Shown piece after piece: positions 4,633 through 22,655 of a stretch of DNA of 28,579 nt. The stretch covers positions 1-28,579 of IMG/VR virus record IMGVR_UViG_3300042905_001576; one strand, 5' to 3'. The position numbers were made by a program, and so were the translations under genes. This DNA comes from a virus. The notes under the pieces are model-generated. The model did not search any database. It was given only the letters and a program-made list of their open reading frames with translations, and was not told the origin of the DNA. Each line of letters opens with the position of its first letter. The first letter of the stretch is position 1.

Positions 4633-5028
4633 ATGGAAAAAGAATTTGTAAGCTATGGAATTGCTTTAAAACTTAAAGAACTTGGATTTGATGAGCCTTG
4701 TCTTACATATTATTATGAACTTACTAGTAATATAAGGACAGGATTATCAATTAACATACTAAATGCCTGGACGTACTCGGGAAATAAAAAATTAGGATTT
4801 ACTTTAGCACCACTATACCAGCAAGCTTTTAAATGGATTAGAGAAAAACATAATATAGATATTAGTATAAATACTATTTATTCTAAGTATAATGAAAATA
4901 CAATTAAACAATATAGTGGAGTTATTGATACTAAAACTATGTATACCAATGTCGGTTTTTACGACAACTACGAAGAAGCTCAACTTGCAGGCTTGCAAAA
5001 AATGATTGAAATAATTAAAAACAAATGA
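4633..5028 (+). CDS. Small phage protein, second copy of the duplicated family
   Basis: A 131-residue paralogue of the protein at 544-951. The DNA is identical over 89 bp (4642-4730 versus 553-641) and again over 67 bp (4754-4820 versus 665-731), so the amino-terminal 76 residues differ at few positions. The centre (about 77-112, Ile/Asn/Tyr-rich) is unrelated to the other copy, then both close with an AQLAGLQKMIEIIKN-type helix. Such conservation at both ends with a replaced middle points to recombination rather than simple drift. It overlaps the resolvase gene by four bases (ATGA). Function unknown. Confidence 0.8.
   Translation: MEKEFVSYGIALKLKELGFDEPCLTYYYELTSNIRTGLSINILNAWTYSGNKKLGFTLAPLYQQAFKWIREKHNIDISINTIYSKYNENTIKQYSGVIDTKTMYTNVGFYDNYEEAQLAGLQKMIEIIKNK
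4642..4730 (+). repeat. 89-bp identical segment, copy 2 (matches 553-641)
   Basis: Second copy of the block described at 553-641. Together with the downstream 67-bp block it forms a direct repeat about 4.1 kb apart, able in principle to delete or duplicate everything between (dcd, glucosaminidase-like gene and others). Confidence 0.95.
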
Positions 5029-8131: not shown

Positions 8132-9958
8132 TTATTTATTTTCGAGGTTAATAATTCTTTGTTCAAGGGCTTTGATCAGGGCTTGTTGTTGCTGGATAGC
8201 TTTTGTTAAAATAGGAATAATACTTTGATAATCTACTCCCATATATTCATCAAAGTGTACGCTTTCTGGAATAATAACGCCAATGTCCTGGGCGATAAAA
8301 CCGAGTTGATGTTCACCATTACTTTTATACGTATAACTAACTGGCATTATTTGCATAATTTCATTTAAGCCATAATTAATACTTTTAATTTCGTTTTTTA
8401 AATTATAATCGGATCTCGTTGTATATCCAGCAGCAGAAACACGCCCACCGACATATAAGCTATCGTTAACAGTTAAGCGATAATTTGCCTGTGGCGCATT
8501 CGTTCCTATTGCTACGCTTCCTGCAACTGTCGTTCCTGTGCCACTTGCACCAGTTATAAATAAAACATTTTGGTAAACGCCTTGATTTGAGCCATTCGAG
8601 ACAGGCAAGTCAATTTGATTGCCAATAGCAACGTTGCCAGAGGCTGCAAATCGAATATTGTCAGCTGCATAAGTACCAATGGCAATATTGTTTGAGCCTG
8701 TTAATGTGTCGCCAACGGTTGTATTGTTCATTGAACTTATACCAATTGCCACATTATCAGTTCCTGTAGTATTATTTCCACCAGCACTTGTGCCATAAAA
8801 ATTATTATTAGATCCTGATATATTATTTACGCCAGCTGATGCACCAAAAAAATTATTATTAGATCCATTTCTATTATTTTGACCAGCTCCTAAGCTAAAA
8901 AAATTATTATTAGCAGCGGTTGTATTATTTAATCCAGCATTAAAGCCAAAAAAATTATTATTAGAACCAATAGTATTTCTTAAACCAGCATTTGTTCCAA
9001 AAAAATTATTATTTCCAGATGCTGTATTGAAAAGTCCTGCGTTTATACCAAAAAAATTATTACTAGTACCAATAGTATTTCTTAAACCAGCATTTGTTCC
9101 AAAAAAATTATTATTTGCCCCTGTAGTTCTTAATCCACCGCCTCCAATAGCAATTGTTGAAGAATTTGGCATCCTTAATGAATTATATAATACTGTAGAA
9201 TTATTTTCTTGCCCTGCAAATATAACAGGTGCACTTCCTGTTATTTCAACAATACTTACATTATCAAGATCACCTGTAAATGATGAAGTCGTAAATCGAA
9301 AGCCACCCGTTGCACTTGTTGGTAATAATAAAATTACATTTGCCGTTGCACTATGTAAAGGCAAATTTAAACTTACATCACCTATCGTTGCAGTTAATGT
9401 ACCAGCCGAATAACTTGTAACCGTGTAAGTAATTTCATAGGCATTTCCACTTGTAATAGTCAATGCAGGTGTGTAAGTCAAATTGCCAGTTGCTGCCGTT
9501 GCTATTGCTTGTGCGCCGTTAAATGTCCATCCTGTGCCACGCGTCCAATTTGTTGTATCGGCTGCAAATGTTTGTGTTGCTACAACCGTTGTTCTTGATA
9601 GATCTTGACTATTTTTTAATATTAAATTTGAAGTCAATGTCTTTACCCCATTTACCGTTTGCGCTCCATAGGTATTTACATATGCAATTAAACTTGTATC
9701 ACTACCACCTGCAATACTCCAAACATTGGTATTTCTTTTATAATGGAAAAACCTATGATTCACTGTGTCAAGAATGATATACGCGCTTGTATCACTTGAG
9801 GGTGTAATAATGCCCGTGTCCGCAAGTACGCCCCGATAAATAAGCCCATCGGCAGTGCTCTGTTCTCCAAGCGTTATCTTTTGATTGCCGTTGCTCGGAT
9901 ACTGTGCCAAAGCAAAGCAAGGCAAAAGGAAGAGGAAAAGGGGAAGGGGTTGTTTCAT
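8132..9958 (-). CDS. Tail fibre/spike with 17-residue repeats and S74 intramolecular chaperone
   Basis: A 608-residue receptor-binding candidate. In order: signal-like leader LFLFLLPCFALAQ (7-19); an N-terminal module similar to that of the 1332-residue fibre (TADGLIYRG, YIILDTVN, NVWSIAGG); a jelly-roll-like module (about 128-240) also found in the tail hub; seven 17-residue repeats of the NNNFFGxNAGLxN type (281-400), reminiscent of trimeric adhesin head repeats; more IAIG/VAIG adhesin-like turns; and a carboxyl Peptidase_S74 domain. There SDYNLKNEI supplies Ser516 and Lys521, the Ser-Lys pair expected to self-cleave after trimer folding. A coiled coil (ALIKALEQRIINLEN) closes the chain. 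Confidence 0.88.
   Translation of the reverse strand: MKQPLPLFLFLLPCFALAQYPSNGNQKITLGEQSTADGLIYRGVLADTGIITPSSDTSAYIILDTVNHRFFHYKRNTNVWSIAGGSDTSLIAYVNTYGAQTVNGVKTLTSNLILKNSQDLSRTTVVATQTFAADTTNWTRGTGWTFNGAQAIATAATGNLTYTPALTITSGNAYEITYTVTSYSAGTLTATIGDVSLNLPLHSATANVILLLPTSATGGFRFTTSSFTGDLDNVSIVEITGSAPVIFAGQENNSTVLYNSLRMPNSSTIAIGGGGLRTTGANNNFFGTNAGLRNTIGTSNNFFGINAGLFNTASGNNNFFGTNAGLRNTIGSNNNFFGFNAGLNNTTAANNNFFSLGAGQNNRNGSNNNFFGASAGVNNISGSNNNFYGTSAGGNNTTGTDNVAIGISSMNNTTVGDTLTGSNNIAIGTYAADNIRFAASGNVAIGNQIDLPVSNGSNQGVYQNVLFITGASGTGTTVAGSVAIGTNAPQANYRLTVNDSLYVGGRVSAAGYTTRSDYNLKNEIKSINYGLNEIMQIMPVSYTYKSNGEHQLGFIAQDIGVIIPESVHFDEYMGVDYQSIIPILTKAIQQQQALIKALEQRIINLENK
8759..9118 (-). repeat. Seven 51-bp tandem repeats in the fibre gene
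   Basis: The anchor AATTATTATT (or a one-base variant) recurs at 8800, 8851, 8902, 8953, 9004, 9055 and 9106, exactly 51 bp apart, encoding 17-residue units. Two units are joined by a 49-bp perfect match (8966-9014 and 9068-9116, 102 bp apart), a sign of recent internal duplication. Spacing is in frame, so copy-number change would preserve the protein. Confidence 0.92.
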
Positions 9959-16579: not shown

Positions 16580-18777
16580 TATCTTATTCTTGAATTAATA
16601 TTTCTAGCTTTTTCCATGATTACTAATAAATCACTTCCAGCCACTCTGGTGGTTAATATGTAAGGTGATCCGCCACCATCTAACATACCCTTTAATTTTG
16701 ATAAAGGTGCTATAACTTCCGGGTCAACCCTTGCATTTCGGTTATCTCCTACGGTTGCCATTGTTGGCCCGTATGCCAACCCACCTTGCGCAAGTTTTGG
16801 AGGAGCAACTTTATTAAGCATTGTATTGAATAAAACGGCTGCACCTGCACCTGCCGCACCTGCTACGGCTATAGCTCCAGGCCCTAAAGTTTTACCCAAC
16901 GGGCCGCCTAATATACCTTTTATAATACCTGCTACACCTTCTTTTATGTAAGCGCTAATAATCATTCTTGCGGCTTGCATGGCTGCACTACCTAACTTCT
17001 TCATATCGGTTTCACCTTGCATCGCCATATTTGAAAAGGCATCGGTTGCCGCAACTAATATATTTTGCATTGGAGTTAATGCACCCTCAACACTTTGTAC
17101 TCTATGTGTTATAGCATCAAATGAGTTAGCTAAAGATAAATTCGTTTCTTTTAATCTTTCGTTGGCAGCCGTAATACTTTCTAATTTTTTAGGAATCAAA
17201 TCTAAAGTAGGAAGCGTGTTGACATTTAACATTTCAAATTGCATCATACTTTTATTAGTCTGCATTTCTTTGATTGCATCTAAAGTAGTATTACCTTTTG
17301 GCTCTGTAGTTGGAGTTGCCTTATTTTTAGTTGTATTTTTTAACGAATCTTCTAAAGCTTTTATTTTAGCCTTCATTGCGGCTACTTCGGGAGAGTCGGT
17401 TGTTGTTGTTTTTTTTGTGTCATCGCCCCAGCTTCCACCTGCTCCACTAGGTTTACCAGCCGAACCACCACCAAATCCAACTTCAATTTCAGGTTTAACT
17501 TTTTGCTTATTAATTAACCTTAAAGTTTCTAATAAATTTACGGCTCCATCGTACACAAAATTAATAAAAGTTAAAACCGCATTTATTTGAGACAAAACAA
17601 CTTCAAAAGTAAACACCGCTATTTTCCCAAATACAAATAAAAGTAAATCAAATAACGGTTGAAGTTTGGATAATAATGTTAAAGTAGTTTGAAAAGCAGC
17701 TTTAATTCTATCAAAAGAACCTGACAATAATTTTCCTGTTTTTGATAGGCTTTTTTGACCTTCGTCTGTACTTGCATAATAAGCAACTAATGAACCTATC
17801 GCCGCAACTAGTAAATAAGTACCACCAGTCATAACGGTAAAAAGTGGTATCAATGTCCTAGTTAAAGTAATAATAGATGTTATTGATGTTGCAAATTGAC
17901 CAATGATTAAAATAACGGGACCTATTGCAGCCGCTATTAAAGCAAATTGAACAATATTTGCCTGTTGCGCAGGTGTTAGTGCTTTAAATCTTTCAACTAA
18001 TCCTTCTATTTTTTTTGAAATATTATCAAATACAACTTCTAATTTTAACGTTTCATTGATTGTTTTACCTAACTCATTTAAACTAATAAAAATATTGTCG
18101 CTTAGGTTTTCAAAGCTATTTGCAAGACCACCCGTAACATTTTGTGTTTGAGGTAATATTTCTAAACCCCTAGCTAATTGCAATAAAAAATCTTTAGCGC
18201 TAATTCCTGTTTCCCTAATTAAATCAATATTTGACGTTCCAAAAGCCGCTTTAAGACCCTCACCCATTAACGGTAAATTACTTTGAATAACTTTATAATC
18301 TTCCGCTAATATTTTATTTTTGGAAATCATTTGAGTCATTTGGTATTGAATTGCTTCTAACTCAAATTTACCTTTACCCGTAGCGGCTAAAGCTTTACCA
18401 AAACCCATTAATGTATTCTTTGCTTCTTCGGCTGATAAACCAACCGCTTGCAAATTTACACTACCTTGAACGGCTTCTTTTAATCCTAATCCTGGAAGCC
18501 TTGCAACTTCTCTAAGTTTTACTATTTCATCTTTTGCTAGTTGGCTACTTCCCATAATGGCAGTCATACCTTTTTCTAGCTTTTCCATTTCGGCAAAAGC
18601 CTTTAATGATGCTGCACCAAGTCCAATAATAGGTAATGTCAAAGATGTGGTAAGATTAGAACCTACGTTCTTCATCGTATTACCAAACTTAGTCATAGAC
18701 TTTTCTACCTTACCTAATTCTTTATCGAGATTAGTGGTATCAATACCCAGCTTTAAAAGTAGTTTACCTATTGCCAT
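16579..18777 (-). CDS. Tape measure protein
   Basis: A 732-residue tape measure that sets tail length and enters the host at injection. It starts right after the chaperone stop (TAA then ATG). The amino part is the tape-measure N-terminal domain (LKAFAEMEKLEKGM, GLSAEEAKNTLMGFGKALAA, LAEDYKVIQSNLPLMGEGLK). A long hydrophobic region (about 265-335) holds two or three potential membrane helices. A Gly/Thr/Lys-rich linker and a coiled region follow. The end has an Ala/Gly-rich hydrophobic segment (GAIAVAGAAGAGAAVLF) and the common LAQGGLAYGPTMATVGD close. By the usual 1.5 angstrom per residue rule the tail would be about 110 nm. No peptidase or lysozyme domain is visible. Confidence 0.9.
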   Translation of the reverse strand: MAIGKLLLKLGIDTTNLDKELGKVEKSMTKFGNTMKNVGSNLTTSLTLPIIGLGAASLKAFAEMEKLEKGMTAIMGSSQLAKDEIVKLREVARLPGLGLKEAVQGSVNLQAVGLSAEEAKNTLMGFGKALAATGKGKFELEAIQYQMTQMISKNKILAEDYKVIQSNLPLMGEGLKAAFGTSNIDLIRETGISAKDFLLQLARGLEILPQTQNVTGGLANSFENLSDNIFISLNELGKTINETLKLEVVFDNISKKIEGLVERFKALTPAQQANIVQFALIAAAIGPVILIIGQFATSITSIITLTRTLIPLFTVMTGGTYLLVAAIGSLVAYYASTDEGQKSLSKTGKLLSGSFDRIKAAFQTTLTLLSKLQPLFDLLLFVFGKIAVFTFEVVLSQINAVLTFINFVYDGAVNLLETLRLINKQKVKPEIEVGFGGGSAGKPSGAGGSWGDDTKKTTTTDSPEVAAMKAKIKALEDSLKNTTKNKATPTTEPKGNTTLDAIKEMQTNKSMMQFEMLNVNTLPTLDLIPKKLESITAANERLKETNLSLANSFDAITHRVQSVEGALTPMQNILVAATDAFSNMAMQGETDMKKLGSAAMQAARMIISAYIKEGVAGIIKGILGGPLGKTLGPGAIAVAGAAGAGAAVLFNTMLNKVAPPKLAQGGLAYGPTMATVGDNRNARVDPEVIAPLSKLKGMLDGGGSPYILTTRVAGSDLLVIMEKARNINSRIR

Positions 18778-19029
18778 TTATAATTCTTTATCCCATTTGT
18801 CAAATATTGTTTTGTCATTATTTGTCAAACTTCTTTTAGTTTCTTTTTTGGTTGGATTCTCCCACGGAAATTCGATTAAATCTTTTGGCTTTAAACTCTT
18901 TCCTTTTGCCGTATGGACATTTAATAATAAAGTTGTTTGCCATCGTATTCGTTCCCATTCTGTTTGCTCCTGTTGTTCAAAGAAATTGTTATAGCCTTGC
19001 ATAGCCATAACAACCTCTCGGAAACTCAT
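18778..19029 (-). CDS. T-like half of the tail assembly chaperone (read by -1 frameshift)
   Basis: The 83 codons from ATG 19029 are the distal part of a longer open frame that continues without stop back to the slippery site at 19119. A -1 shift there joins residue Asn102 of the upstream chaperone to 113 further residues (RSGEGGELTLEYIERF... first, ending in this segment), making a 215-residue fusion like lambda gpGT. Residues here are helical and charged (REVVMAMQGYNNFFEQQEQT), with WERIRWQTTLLL and a basic tail. Independent initiation at ATG 19029 is possible but not needed. The last codon abuts the tape-measure ATG, the protein it should chaperone. Confidence 0.85.
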   Translation of the reverse strand: MSFREVVMAMQGYNNFFEQQEQTEWERIRWQTTLLLNVHTAKGKSLKPKDLIEFPWENPTKKETKRSLTNNDKTIFDKWDKEL

Positions 19030-19055
19030 TTCATTGTATTGCGAAGGAGGAAATC

Positions 19056-19424
19056 TTAAAACTCCGAAACAAAAGCGTTCGATGTATTCAAGGGTAAGCT
19101 CTCCGCCTTCGCCACTACGTTTTTTTGGCTCTCATCTTCTGGTGGTGAAATCTCGTTTGAAATCATTTCCATTATACGAGCTATACCACCCATATCAGTA
19201 TCGACCAAATCGCAAAAAGATTGTAAATCATAAGGACATTTTTCTCCTTTAGCTTTGTACCCCTGTTGAACGCCTGCAAAGGCTAATTCAAGAGCTAAAA
19301 GAAGATCTTCGCCAAGTAGGGAAAGGTCACTTAATTTAAGCTTCCTTTCCCTTAAAAATGTACCTAAAACGAACATACCAAATTTAATTGGAATGTCCGC
19401 ATTAGCTATTTTTATTGTTTTCAT
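19056..19424 (-). CDS. Tail assembly chaperone, G-like
   Basis: A 122-residue, mainly helical protein between major tail and tape-measure genes, the standard position of lambda G-type chaperones. Segments: MKTIKIANADIPIKFGM strand start, LRERKLKLSDLSLLGED helix, an Ala/Leu-rich helix (LLLALELAFAGVQQGY), CPYDLQSFCDLVDTDMGG, and IARIMEMISNEI. Codons 100-102 read CAA AAA AAC and contain the A AAA AAC slippery heptamer. Without a shift, translation adds 20 residues and stops at 19056. It coats the tape measure so the tail tube can polymerise around it. The lambda-like arrangement makes the assignment strong despite weak sequence identity to any named family. Confidence 0.85.
   Translation of the reverse strand: MKTIKIANADIPIKFGMFVLGTFLRERKLKLSDLSLLGEDLLLALELAFAGVQQGYKAKGEKCPYDLQSFCDLVDTDMGGIARIMEMISNEISPPEDESQKNVVAKAESLPLNTSNAFVSEF
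19119..19125 (-). promoter_or_regulatory. Programmed -1 ribosomal frameshift site (A AAA AAC)
   Basis: On the left-going strand the heptamer A AAA AAC lies in the exact X XXY YYZ phase of the upstream frame (codons CAA AAA AAC, residues 100-102). After a -1 slip the next codon CGT (19119-19117) opens a frame that runs 113 codons to 18778. No obvious downstream stimulatory hairpin was identified by eye. Confidence 0.9.
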
Positions 19425-19441: not shown

Positions 19442-19870
19442 TTATGCTTTAGTAGTTTTCACAATCGCTCCAGTAACTTCAAATGAAGCTGAATAGCTTA
19501 CATTCTCTTCCACACCAGCGTTTAAGTCTAATGATGTACAAATGGCACTCATAGTGTACACATTATCACCCACAACGTCGGTAGTAAACTTAATAGTCAA
19601 TGCGGTACCTGCCACGAGGTCGGTAAATAAATCATCAAACAAATAGTTTGTTGAAGCATCGCCCGGGCCCGCATATAACGCCTCCGTCGAAAGTGTTCCG
19701 GAAAGTTGACCTTTCTTTACTTCTCTCCATCCTCCAGCCGCAGAATCCTTTGTAAGAATTTCACGCATTGCAGATGAAATGTTCATTTGGCAAGATGTGG
19801 CATAGCCGATAGCCGTACTATCTTTGTAAAGCCTCATTAACGTACCATTAATTATTCCAGTAGTTGGCAT
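19442..19870 (-). CDS. Major tail tube protein (TP901-1 type)
   Basis: A 142-residue beta-rich protein located just upstream of the tail chaperones. It opens with GIINGTLMRLYKDSTAIGYATSC-type strands, has NISSAMREILTKDS, GGWREVKKGQLSGTLSTEAL (typical tube beta hairpin and loop) and a Val/Thr-rich end (VSYSASFEVTGAIVK), matching the TP901-1/phage_tail_2 family pattern. It polymerises as hexameric rings around the tape measure. Its size is near the lower limit of the family (about 140-200). Six bases separate it from the upstream small gene. Confidence 0.85.
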   Translation of the reverse strand: MPTTGIINGTLMRLYKDSTAIGYATSCQMNISSAMREILTKDSAAGGWREVKKGQLSGTLSTEALYAGPGDASTNYLFDDLFTDLVAGTALTIKFTTDVVGDNVYTMSAICTSLDLNAGVEENVSYSASFEVTGAIVKTTKA

Positions 19871-21433: not shown

Positions 21434-22004
21434 ATTTGTGTCTGTTTAACATTACGTCCGAAGCCGTAGGCATTTTATAAACACTATCAGTCCTATTCTC
21501 GTAAATGTTAGCTATCATTTTTAGAATAGCTATTCTAATATCAGTCGGGCAGCTTGTTGCACTTGTTCCAAATCCTGCCACATAAGTAATCGTAACATCA
21601 TTTAATGAAAGATAAGTATCTGGAAAGTCCTGGTCAACTGCTTCACCTATTATTCCCCTGTATGTGTCAACTTCGTATAAATTTTGTGGTAATGTTTGGC
21701 TATTGCCATTTTCGTCTAGGTAGGTAATTGAAGTAACACTAATTACCGGATAAACCAATAATTTAATTACATTTTCGTAATCAGTAGCAACCTTATAAGA
21801 AGATGGAAATCTTTCTAATCTTTGTATAATCGTTTTATTTAAAGTGCTAATATTTTGCCTAGCCTCAACCGCTTCTCTCGCACCTTTAATAATAGTAGTA
21901 ATTAAAGAGTCGTCCGCTGAATCCTCAACTTTTAAATAATTTTTGACTTCGGATAAAGTCCATAATTCATTTGTCTGGTCAACGGTAACTCTCCAAGGTT
22001 TCAT
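21420..22004 (-). CDS. Head-tail connector adaptor (HK97 gp6-like)
   Basis: A 194-residue, mostly helical protein with the gp6/SPP1 gp15 signature: LWTLSEVKNYLKVEDSADD (14-32), SLITTIIKGAREAVEARQN (33-51), a beta insertion with PVISVTSITYLDENGN (86-101), a DVTITYVAGFG strand (136-146), and the helix PTDIRIAILKMIANIYENR (153-171). It forms the ring beneath the portal. The amino insertion is typical of the longer form (phage_chp_2). It overlaps the small gene upstream by four bases. Confidence 0.87.
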   Translation of the reverse strand: MKPWRVTVDQTNELWTLSEVKNYLKVEDSADDSLITTIIKGAREAVEARQNISTLNKTIIQRLERFPSSYKVATDYENVIKLLVYPVISVTSITYLDENGNSQTLPQNLYEVDTYRGIIGEAVDQDFPDTYLSLNDVTITYVAGFGTSATSCPTDIRIAILKMIANIYENRTDSVYKMPTASDVMLNRHKYDWV

Positions 22005-22213
22005 CTCTTAATAGCTTTTTTTGGTTTGGTGCTACTTGTATTTTCAATGATTGTTTTAGCCTCTATTTCTTTTGGCTTATCATTTACTTCAATAGCTATT
22101 TCTAGCCTAATCAATTCTTTTGCCGTAATCTCGTTTAGTTCTGCCTCATCCCCCTGAAAATATCCAAGGGAATGAGGCGAACCTGAAGGAGACTTTATAA
22201 ATCTCACTTTCAT
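22001..22213 (-). CDS. Small protein of the head module, 70 residues
   Basis: A short gene between the signal-peptide protein and the gp6-like adaptor. MKVRFIKSPSG, a Gly-Tyr-Phe-Gln-Gly turn, and a helix (EITAKELIRLEIAIEV) are followed by a Lys/Glu/Thr/Ser-rich disordered tail. The layout matches the 81-residue protein at 19877-20122. Such small proteins are frequent in HK97-like modules, sometimes annotated as head fibre or rho-like peptides, but I cannot assign one. Overlaps the next gene by four bases. Confidence 0.65.
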   Translation of the reverse strand: MKVRFIKSPSGSPHSLGYFQGDEAELNEITAKELIRLEIAIEVNDKPKEIEAKTIIENTSSTKPKKAIKR

Positions 22214-22214
22214 T

Positions 22215-22655
22215 TTATGGGTTTTTAGCTACAAAGTAGGCAGTATATCTGGTTGATTGAGTACCAACACCAGTTAACACTAATCTATATTTTGTACCAC
22301 CAATTATAGCATCTTCATTAGATTGCACTAAACCATTTACGTTTAAAGTGTCTAAAGTTGCAACGCTAGTATAATCGGTTGAACTTGCAGCTTGTAAGAC
22401 AGTAGGCAAAATATAAGTAGTGCCTGACAAATTAGTAGCTACAATCGACCAATAACCGCTCCAAGGGCTTAACAAGCTAACAGGAATAGTAATAGTGTCT
22501 ATTTCAGTATTAGTGATTGTGTCACTTACTGAATAGCTATAAAATGTACTTGAAGCATCATCATAATTTGCATCAAGTGTTTTGCTTCGGTCGTTTACAA
22601 AAGCCGTTAATCCAATAGCGGCAAAAACAAACAAACCAATTAAAATATTCTTCAT
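22215..22655 (-). CDS. Signal-peptide protein directly downstream of the capsid gene
   Basis: A 146-residue protein with a hydrophobic leader MKNILIGLFVFAAIGLTAF (1-19) resembling a signal peptide or anchor, then a beta-rich, Thr/Ser-rich domain (DTITNTEIDTITIPVSLLS, WSIVATNLSGTTYILP, TKYRLVLTGVG, TRYTAYFVAKN). It stands 11 bases after the major capsid gene, where decoration or head-fibre proteins are usual. An export leader there is odd, since capsids assemble in the cytoplasm. It may be a secreted factor, or the segment may insert in the virion rather than the membrane. No family recognised. Confidence 0.7.
   Translation of the reverse strand: MKNILIGLFVFAAIGLTAFVNDRSKTLDANYDDASSTFYSYSVSDTITNTEIDTITIPVSLLSPWSGYWSIVATNLSGTTYILPTVLQAASSTDYTSVATLDTLNVNGLVQSNEDAIIGGTKYRLVLTGVGTQSTRYTAYFVAKNP

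Follow-up and report, generated by a model that had tools for sequence, protein, structure and literature searches.

In the window, i.e. the whole stretch of 28,579 nt analyzed here (IMG/VR virus record IMGVR_UViG_3300042905_001576), two small overlapping reading frames between the genes of the tail tube and the tape measure protein are, judged from sequence comparison, very probably joined by a programmed -1 ribosomal frameshift such as that of lambda G/GT. A frameshift joining two tail assembly chaperones had been proposed in the original prediction, and this proposal is supported by the position of the pair, the phase of the heptamer, the open second frame, conserved heptamers in the relatives and a covarying stem. 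The mechanism is an ordinary one, while the family in which it occurs is unannotated. Ribosomes translating the G-like gene would meet the heptamer A_AAA_AAC and, 6 nt further on, the start of a stem-loop. The majority would stay in the zero frame and yield a G-like chaperone of 122 residues, while a minority, held by the stem, would slip back by one base and yield a GT-like fusion of 215 residues carrying a helical T domain. We infer the slippage itself and its efficiency, and also that, as described for lambda (PMC5009743), G would coat the tape measure, with T recruiting the subunits of the tail tube.

Reading frames, gene neighbourhood and protein identity

The features of the region are as follows, in the direction of transcription:

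19442..19870, minus strand: major tail (tube) protein gene, upstream neighbour (PF06199 Phage_tail_2, E 1.3e-9; phrog_1407, E 1.9e-17)
19056..19424, minus strand: G-like tail assembly chaperone ORF, zero frame, 122 aa, start ATG at 19424
19119..19125, minus strand: slippery heptamer A_AAA_AAC, predicted -1 frameshift site, exact and in phase in relatives
19113..19118, minus strand: 6-nt spacer between heptamer and stem, of constant length in 94 distinct sequences
19106..19112, minus strand: 5' arm of the putative stimulatory stem, GCGAAGG, paired with the 3' arm in 94/94
19041..19047, minus strand: 3' arm of the putative stimulatory stem, CCTTCGC, pairing with GCGAAGG
19027..19029, minus strand: internal ATG at codon 31 of the T extension, start of the called 83-aa protein, judged not a real start
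18778..19119, minus strand: T-like extension, -1 frame, 113 codons plus stop TAA
16579..18777, minus strand: tape measure protein gene, downstream neighbour (PF20155 TMP_3, E 1.3e-15; several PHROG tape-measure families)

The AAAAAAC begins at an offset of 299 from the ATG at 19424, which corresponds to phase 2. The zero-frame codons are therefore (CA)A AAA AAC, with the first base of the motif as the wobble base of codon 100 of the G-like ORF, and the heptamer shows the X_XXY_YYZ phase of a canonical -1 signal exactly where the original prediction had placed it; all of its coordinates were right. While the zero frame stops at 19058-19056, the -1 frame from 19119 reads RSGEGGELTLEYIERF... (codons CGT AGT GGC GAA ...). 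It stays open for the predicted 113 codons and closes with a TAA at 18780-18778 that directly adjoins the tape-measure ATG at 18777. Recalculation of the products gave the same lengths as proposed before, namely 122 residues for the G-like protein and 102 + 113 = 215 residues for the fusion. Mechanical ORF calling likewise returned the expected isolated ORF of 83 residues from 19029, and gene callers will report this truncated protein at such loci.

The gene order is tail tube, G, T and tape measure. As in a lambda-type pair, two ORFs lie between the major tail protein and tape measure genes, and the second, overlapping frame is open from the slip site without a usable start. The T extension matched phrog_16333, a family of 'unknown function', with an E-value of 3e-17 over residues 17-108, and also phrog_7377, but no others. 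All 48 of 48 T family members matched phrog_16333. Weak Pfam matches among the T relatives were observed to Phage_TAC_6 (14/48, best E 0.0014) and Phage_tail_T (3/48, best 0.073), and among the G relatives to Phage_TAC_12 (2/37, best 0.0062) and to phrog_183 'tail chaperone' (2/37, best 3.8e-5), at E-values at which unrelated weak matches occur as well. The G-like protein of the window itself showed no significant family match (best E 0.041). Its AlphaFold2 model (pLDDT 79) was similar to predicted viral proteins in BFVD, several of which are named as tail assembly chaperones (E 1.2e-4 and TMq 0.68 for the best of these). The model of the T extension is helical (pLDDT 84.7). Searches of the PDB by sequence and fold returned no solved relative, the search for G proteins among named phages found none, and the nucleotide similarity search in named phages gave spurious matches only. 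Altogether, the analysis supplies the missing annotation for phrog_16333, an abundant unnamed tail chaperone family that occurs in Bacteroidota phages as well as in aquatic and gut viromes.

Since the named and genome-derived T homologues come from Bacteroides, Cellulophaga and a Bacteroidales MAG, the host is likely a member of the Bacteroidota. A terminase search for the host was of no help, as it matched Firmicutes and other phages at approximately 36% identity. Among the closest described systems are gp19/gp20 of Cellulophaga phage phi39:1 (KC821626) and gp39/gp38 of Bacteroides phage F4 (MT806185), which comprise a homologous T domain (23-29% identity to the T of the window), the same gene order and an A-run at the junction, but are annotated as separate hypothetical proteins. 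Unlike the window, phi39:1 carries eight A's, and its T frame lies at +1/-2 and not at -1 relative to G. In this phage the flanking tail proteins were annotated from virion MS/MS, while gp19 and gp20 were not, a hint that would fit a lambda-type pair, whose two products do not enter the virion.

Tail assembly chaperone frameshifts were catalogued by Xu, Hendrix and Duda 2004, as cited in PMC5009743 and PMC10885494. Compared to lambda gpG/gpGT, the arrangement is the same, but the pair of the window shows no detectable sequence homology to the lambda proteins and uses A_AAA_AAC with a structured 3' stimulator. The g-t frameshift of the haloarchaeal HCTV-2 (PMC5009743) has the identical heptamer A_AAA_AAC at the same gene pair, in a virus with an archaeal host. 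The -1 signals of IS911 and dnaX (PMC5009743) also comprise an A-rich heptamer followed by a stem-loop, and the RNAalifold consensus of the window recalls the branched IS911 structure (PMC5009743). These signals belong to different genes, however, the heptamer of the window is A_AAA_AAC and not A_AAA_AAG, and no Shine-Dalgarno-like stimulator was established for the window. Literature searches outside subscription papers found no described frameshift in Bacteroidetes tail chaperones, which is not proof of absence.

Conservation of heptamer and stem

Within the window the motif AAAAAAC occurs 22 times compared to 26 expected, i.e. without enrichment. In the minus-strand genes of the window, 101 of 6976 codon steps (1.4%) carry any in-phase X_XXY_YYZ and three of the 6976 an in-phase A_AAA_AAC. 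By chance, the probability of at least one in-phase heptamer in an overlap of 22 codons is approximately 0.27. The heptamer of a single genome is thus weak evidence for frameshifting and suggestive only. Because in-phase heptamers are common in this AT-rich genome, the heptamer alone was rejected as proof, and since within the window it is only weakly above chance, the case rests on comparison.

More than 220 contigs in IMG/VR encode relatives of either G or T. The close set comprises 153 distinct G-T regions of the clade of the window, down to about 73% T identity. A_AAA_AAC is exact and in phase in 153/153, a number of distinct sequences of which many are closely related and which does not represent independent events. 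The lysine codon of the heptamer is AAA and the asparagine codon AAC in all 153, although AAC accounts for only 120 of the 522 Asn codons in the genes of the window. The base preceding AAA is always A across five different codons (CAA, AGA, GAA, AAA and GGA). The original prediction had named a synonymous disruption of the heptamer in related phages as the observation that would count against it; such a disruption was looked for, and 153/153 retain A_AAA_AAC.

Remote relatives, found by searches seeded with the homologues from named phages, cover Cellulophaga, Bacteroides, marine and gut lineages with a T identity to the window of about 20-30%. When pairs were required to have, besides an open T frame, an ORF of 60 aa or more upstream in -1 relation, an in-phase slippery heptamer was found in the overlap of 243/243 distinct homologous pairs, whose T identities extend from roughly 20 to 99% and whose heptamers are of several types. 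A_AAA_AAC is present in most of them, and G_GGA_AAG, G_GGA_AAC, runs of nine A's (A_AAA_AAA/G) or C_CCA_AAG in the others. In a held-out test, four of four loci from Bacteroidota genomes, detected later with the T profile, showed the -1 arrangement and an in-phase heptamer, two of the four being weak profile matches (E about 2e-4). A -1 ORF of the required length was absent from 19 loci, most of which end at contig edges; in one of them (L404) the script had missed a -1 arrangement that can be read by eye. True exceptions are phi39:1 (L157 and L314) and L403, which carry eight A's and have the T frame at +1/-2 of G instead of -1 (junctions at L157:3930-4010 for phi39:1 and at L403:2440-2490). 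These can be attributed either to a -2 shift, to transcriptional slippage or to a homopolymer sequencing error. At the sequence level, the conservation is confirmed to place the heptamer far beyond chance.

Downstream of the heptamer, at a constant distance of 6 nt, GCGAAGG and CCTTCGC form a stem of seven base pairs, all of which are standard pairs in 94/94 distinct sequences. One pair varies (A-U in 71, G-C in 16 and G-U in 7 of the 94 sequences, without a mismatch); it is the only pair that changes on both sides, and shuffles ignoring relatedness overstate the covariation. In a part of clade 2 the 3' arm changes from TCG to CCG (Ser to Pro in T) together with a G that matches it in the 5' arm. 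Within the 3' arm, the Pro and Ser codons show no change at their wobble bases, in contrast to the preceding Pro, whose wobble base varies. An unbiased scan that covered every 7-bp stem of the 641-nt G-T region in 146 distinct sequences, with 97% pairing required for each pair, ranked this stem first. The RNAalifold consensus comprises the outer stem and two small hairpins within its loop. Accordingly, a 3' RNA structure a few nucleotides downstream, as is typical of a canonical -1 signal, is present as well.

Nine diverse members of the clade with A_AAA_AAC gave folding z-scores between -2.6 and -5.4, and the stem of the window itself gave modest ones (-2.55 and -2.78). Since other windows in the same region fold equally well or better, z-scores alone were rejected as proof of a stimulator, and the claim of a stimulator rests on the conservation of the pairs.

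Weighing of alternative explanations

An accidental overlap of frames, from which no fusion would be made, is compatible with the in-phase heptamer expected in about 27% of such overlaps. It does not account for a heptamer conserved in 153/153 close and 243/243 distinct homologues and in 4/4 held-out loci, nor for the covariation of the stem. Unless all of this conservation were due to an unrelated coding constraint, the chance reading can be regarded as already refuted by conservation, and its probability is negligible. Alternatively, the two proteins could be separate, with the 83-aa protein started independently at ATG 19029 after termination of the 122-aa protein at 19056. The ATG is located about 26 nt past the upstream stop, and the Met is kept in 148/148 members of the clade. 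In the wider family, however, the residue at this position is mostly not Met, and upstream of this ATG, as far back as the slip site, the frame offers no ATG, GTG or TTG. Furthermore, the match to phrog_16333 starts at residue 17, and the ATG follows only at residue 31 of the -1 frame, so that an independent start would cut into the T domain; the helices predicted for T at 10-20 and 25-30 would be lost as well. An independent start would also leave the invariant heptamer and the stem unexplained. Given that T domain and helices start further upstream and that conservation of the Met ends with the clade, a start at 19029 was rejected as very improbable.

Another source of a fusion would be transcriptional slippage, in which RNA polymerase adds an A within the A-run, so that some of the transcripts carry the fusion as a single frame. 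A-runs are classic sites of transcriptional slippage, and distant gut relatives carry nine A's at the same junction. The run comprises seven A's here, however, and only six in the sister clade and in L085. The phase and the terminal C of the heptamer do not vary, slippage of this kind would not need a conserved 3' stem placed at ribosomal spacing, and long runs are lacking altogether in the G_GGA_AAG relatives. Owing to the run of only 6-7 A's, this explanation was rejected for the site of the window, where we give it as slim a chance as the independent start; for the relatives with nine A's it may well hold. A programmed -1 ribosomal frameshift is thus the reading adopted for the window.

Slip-site strength and RNA structure within the family

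In E. coli, A_AAA_AAC is much less prone to shift than A_AAA_AAG (PMC5009743). The original prediction contained neither this weakness nor a stimulator. Within the family, the structure was compared by the z-score of the 86 nt downstream of the heptamer. The median was -0.28 in 20 members with G_GGA_AAG/C and -0.05 in 17 others with A-runs, and the A_AAA_AAC members differed from these groups with Mann-Whitney p-values of 2e-5 and 5e-4, which overstate the case because the members are not phylogenetically independent. Outside the main clade, structure was seen in three single lineages, namely L160 (C_CCA_AAG), L381 (nine A's followed by GGGG) and L426 (nine A's followed by C).

In the main group with G_GGA_AAG, the marine lineages L315-L393, the heptamer is followed by an immediate zero-frame stop in 50 of 55 distinct sequences, and little 3' RNA structure is found. 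An immediate zero-frame stop after the heptamer was also observed in 11 sequences with A_AAA_AAG. The deeply divergent gut lineages L394-L428 repeatedly show nine A's in a row at the G/T junction; such runs are long enough for transcriptional slippage, which could well operate there.

The finding that the heptamer weak in E. coli is always paired with structure, while relatives with G_GGA_AAG or nine A's mostly lack it, is mildly new and is considered as a lead. A tentative explanation, which we hold to be possible but less probable than not being the case, would be that the recoding signal was rebuilt several times along a trade-off: a weak A_AAA_AAC with strong 3' structure, a G_GGA_AAG with a direct stop and mostly without structure, or nine-A runs with possible transcriptional slippage, with extra hairpins of the clade possibly tuning the ratio. 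If this were true, the family would represent a natural experiment in which different mechanisms arrive at one fixed G:GT ratio. As a comparative set, it offers homologues that differ in slip-site strength and stimulator while presumably requiring the same product ratio.

Two further conserved hairpins were observed in the G-T mRNA of the clade, which could tune the G:GT ratio. A perfect 8-bp hairpin is located early in the G-like gene at 19351-19319 (minus strand, GGGAAAGG/CCTTTCCC), about 200 nt before the slip site, and is paired in 146/146 distinct relatives. One of its pairs joins two wobble positions and occurs as G-C in 65, G-U in 45 and A-U in 36 sequences, another as G-C in 144 and A-U in 2; the compensatory changes fall at synonymous positions. 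In a stricter 8-bp scan of the G-T region it was the only stem found, and the same scan of the tail tube gene and the stretch before it gave no stem (10-20 sequences only). Other lineages of the family do not show the hairpin at the corresponding position, and Rfam contains no match to it. The second hairpin lies in the T frame at about 18985-19014 (minus strand) and extends to approximately 17 bp in the window itself (window offsets 405-444). Its inner 12 bp are paired in 94-100% of 146 sequences, one of them as G-C in 59, A-U in 58 and G-U in 26, while the outer part is not conserved.

The strongest RNA fold predicted anywhere in the window (z -5.5 to -7.8) was found outside the G-T region at 22100-22219 on the minus strand, close to where the small genes 22001-22213 and 22215-22655 adjoin. 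Two paralogous small proteins (FVSYGIALKLKELGFDEPCLTYYYELTSN...) without Pfam match are encoded at 544-951 and 4633-5028 on the plus strand, apparently as the result of a gene duplication. The tail protein encoded at 8132-9958 (minus strand) carries a C-terminal Peptidase_S74 intramolecular chaperone domain (E 3.6e-11), which is preceded by repeated NNNFFG-like units.
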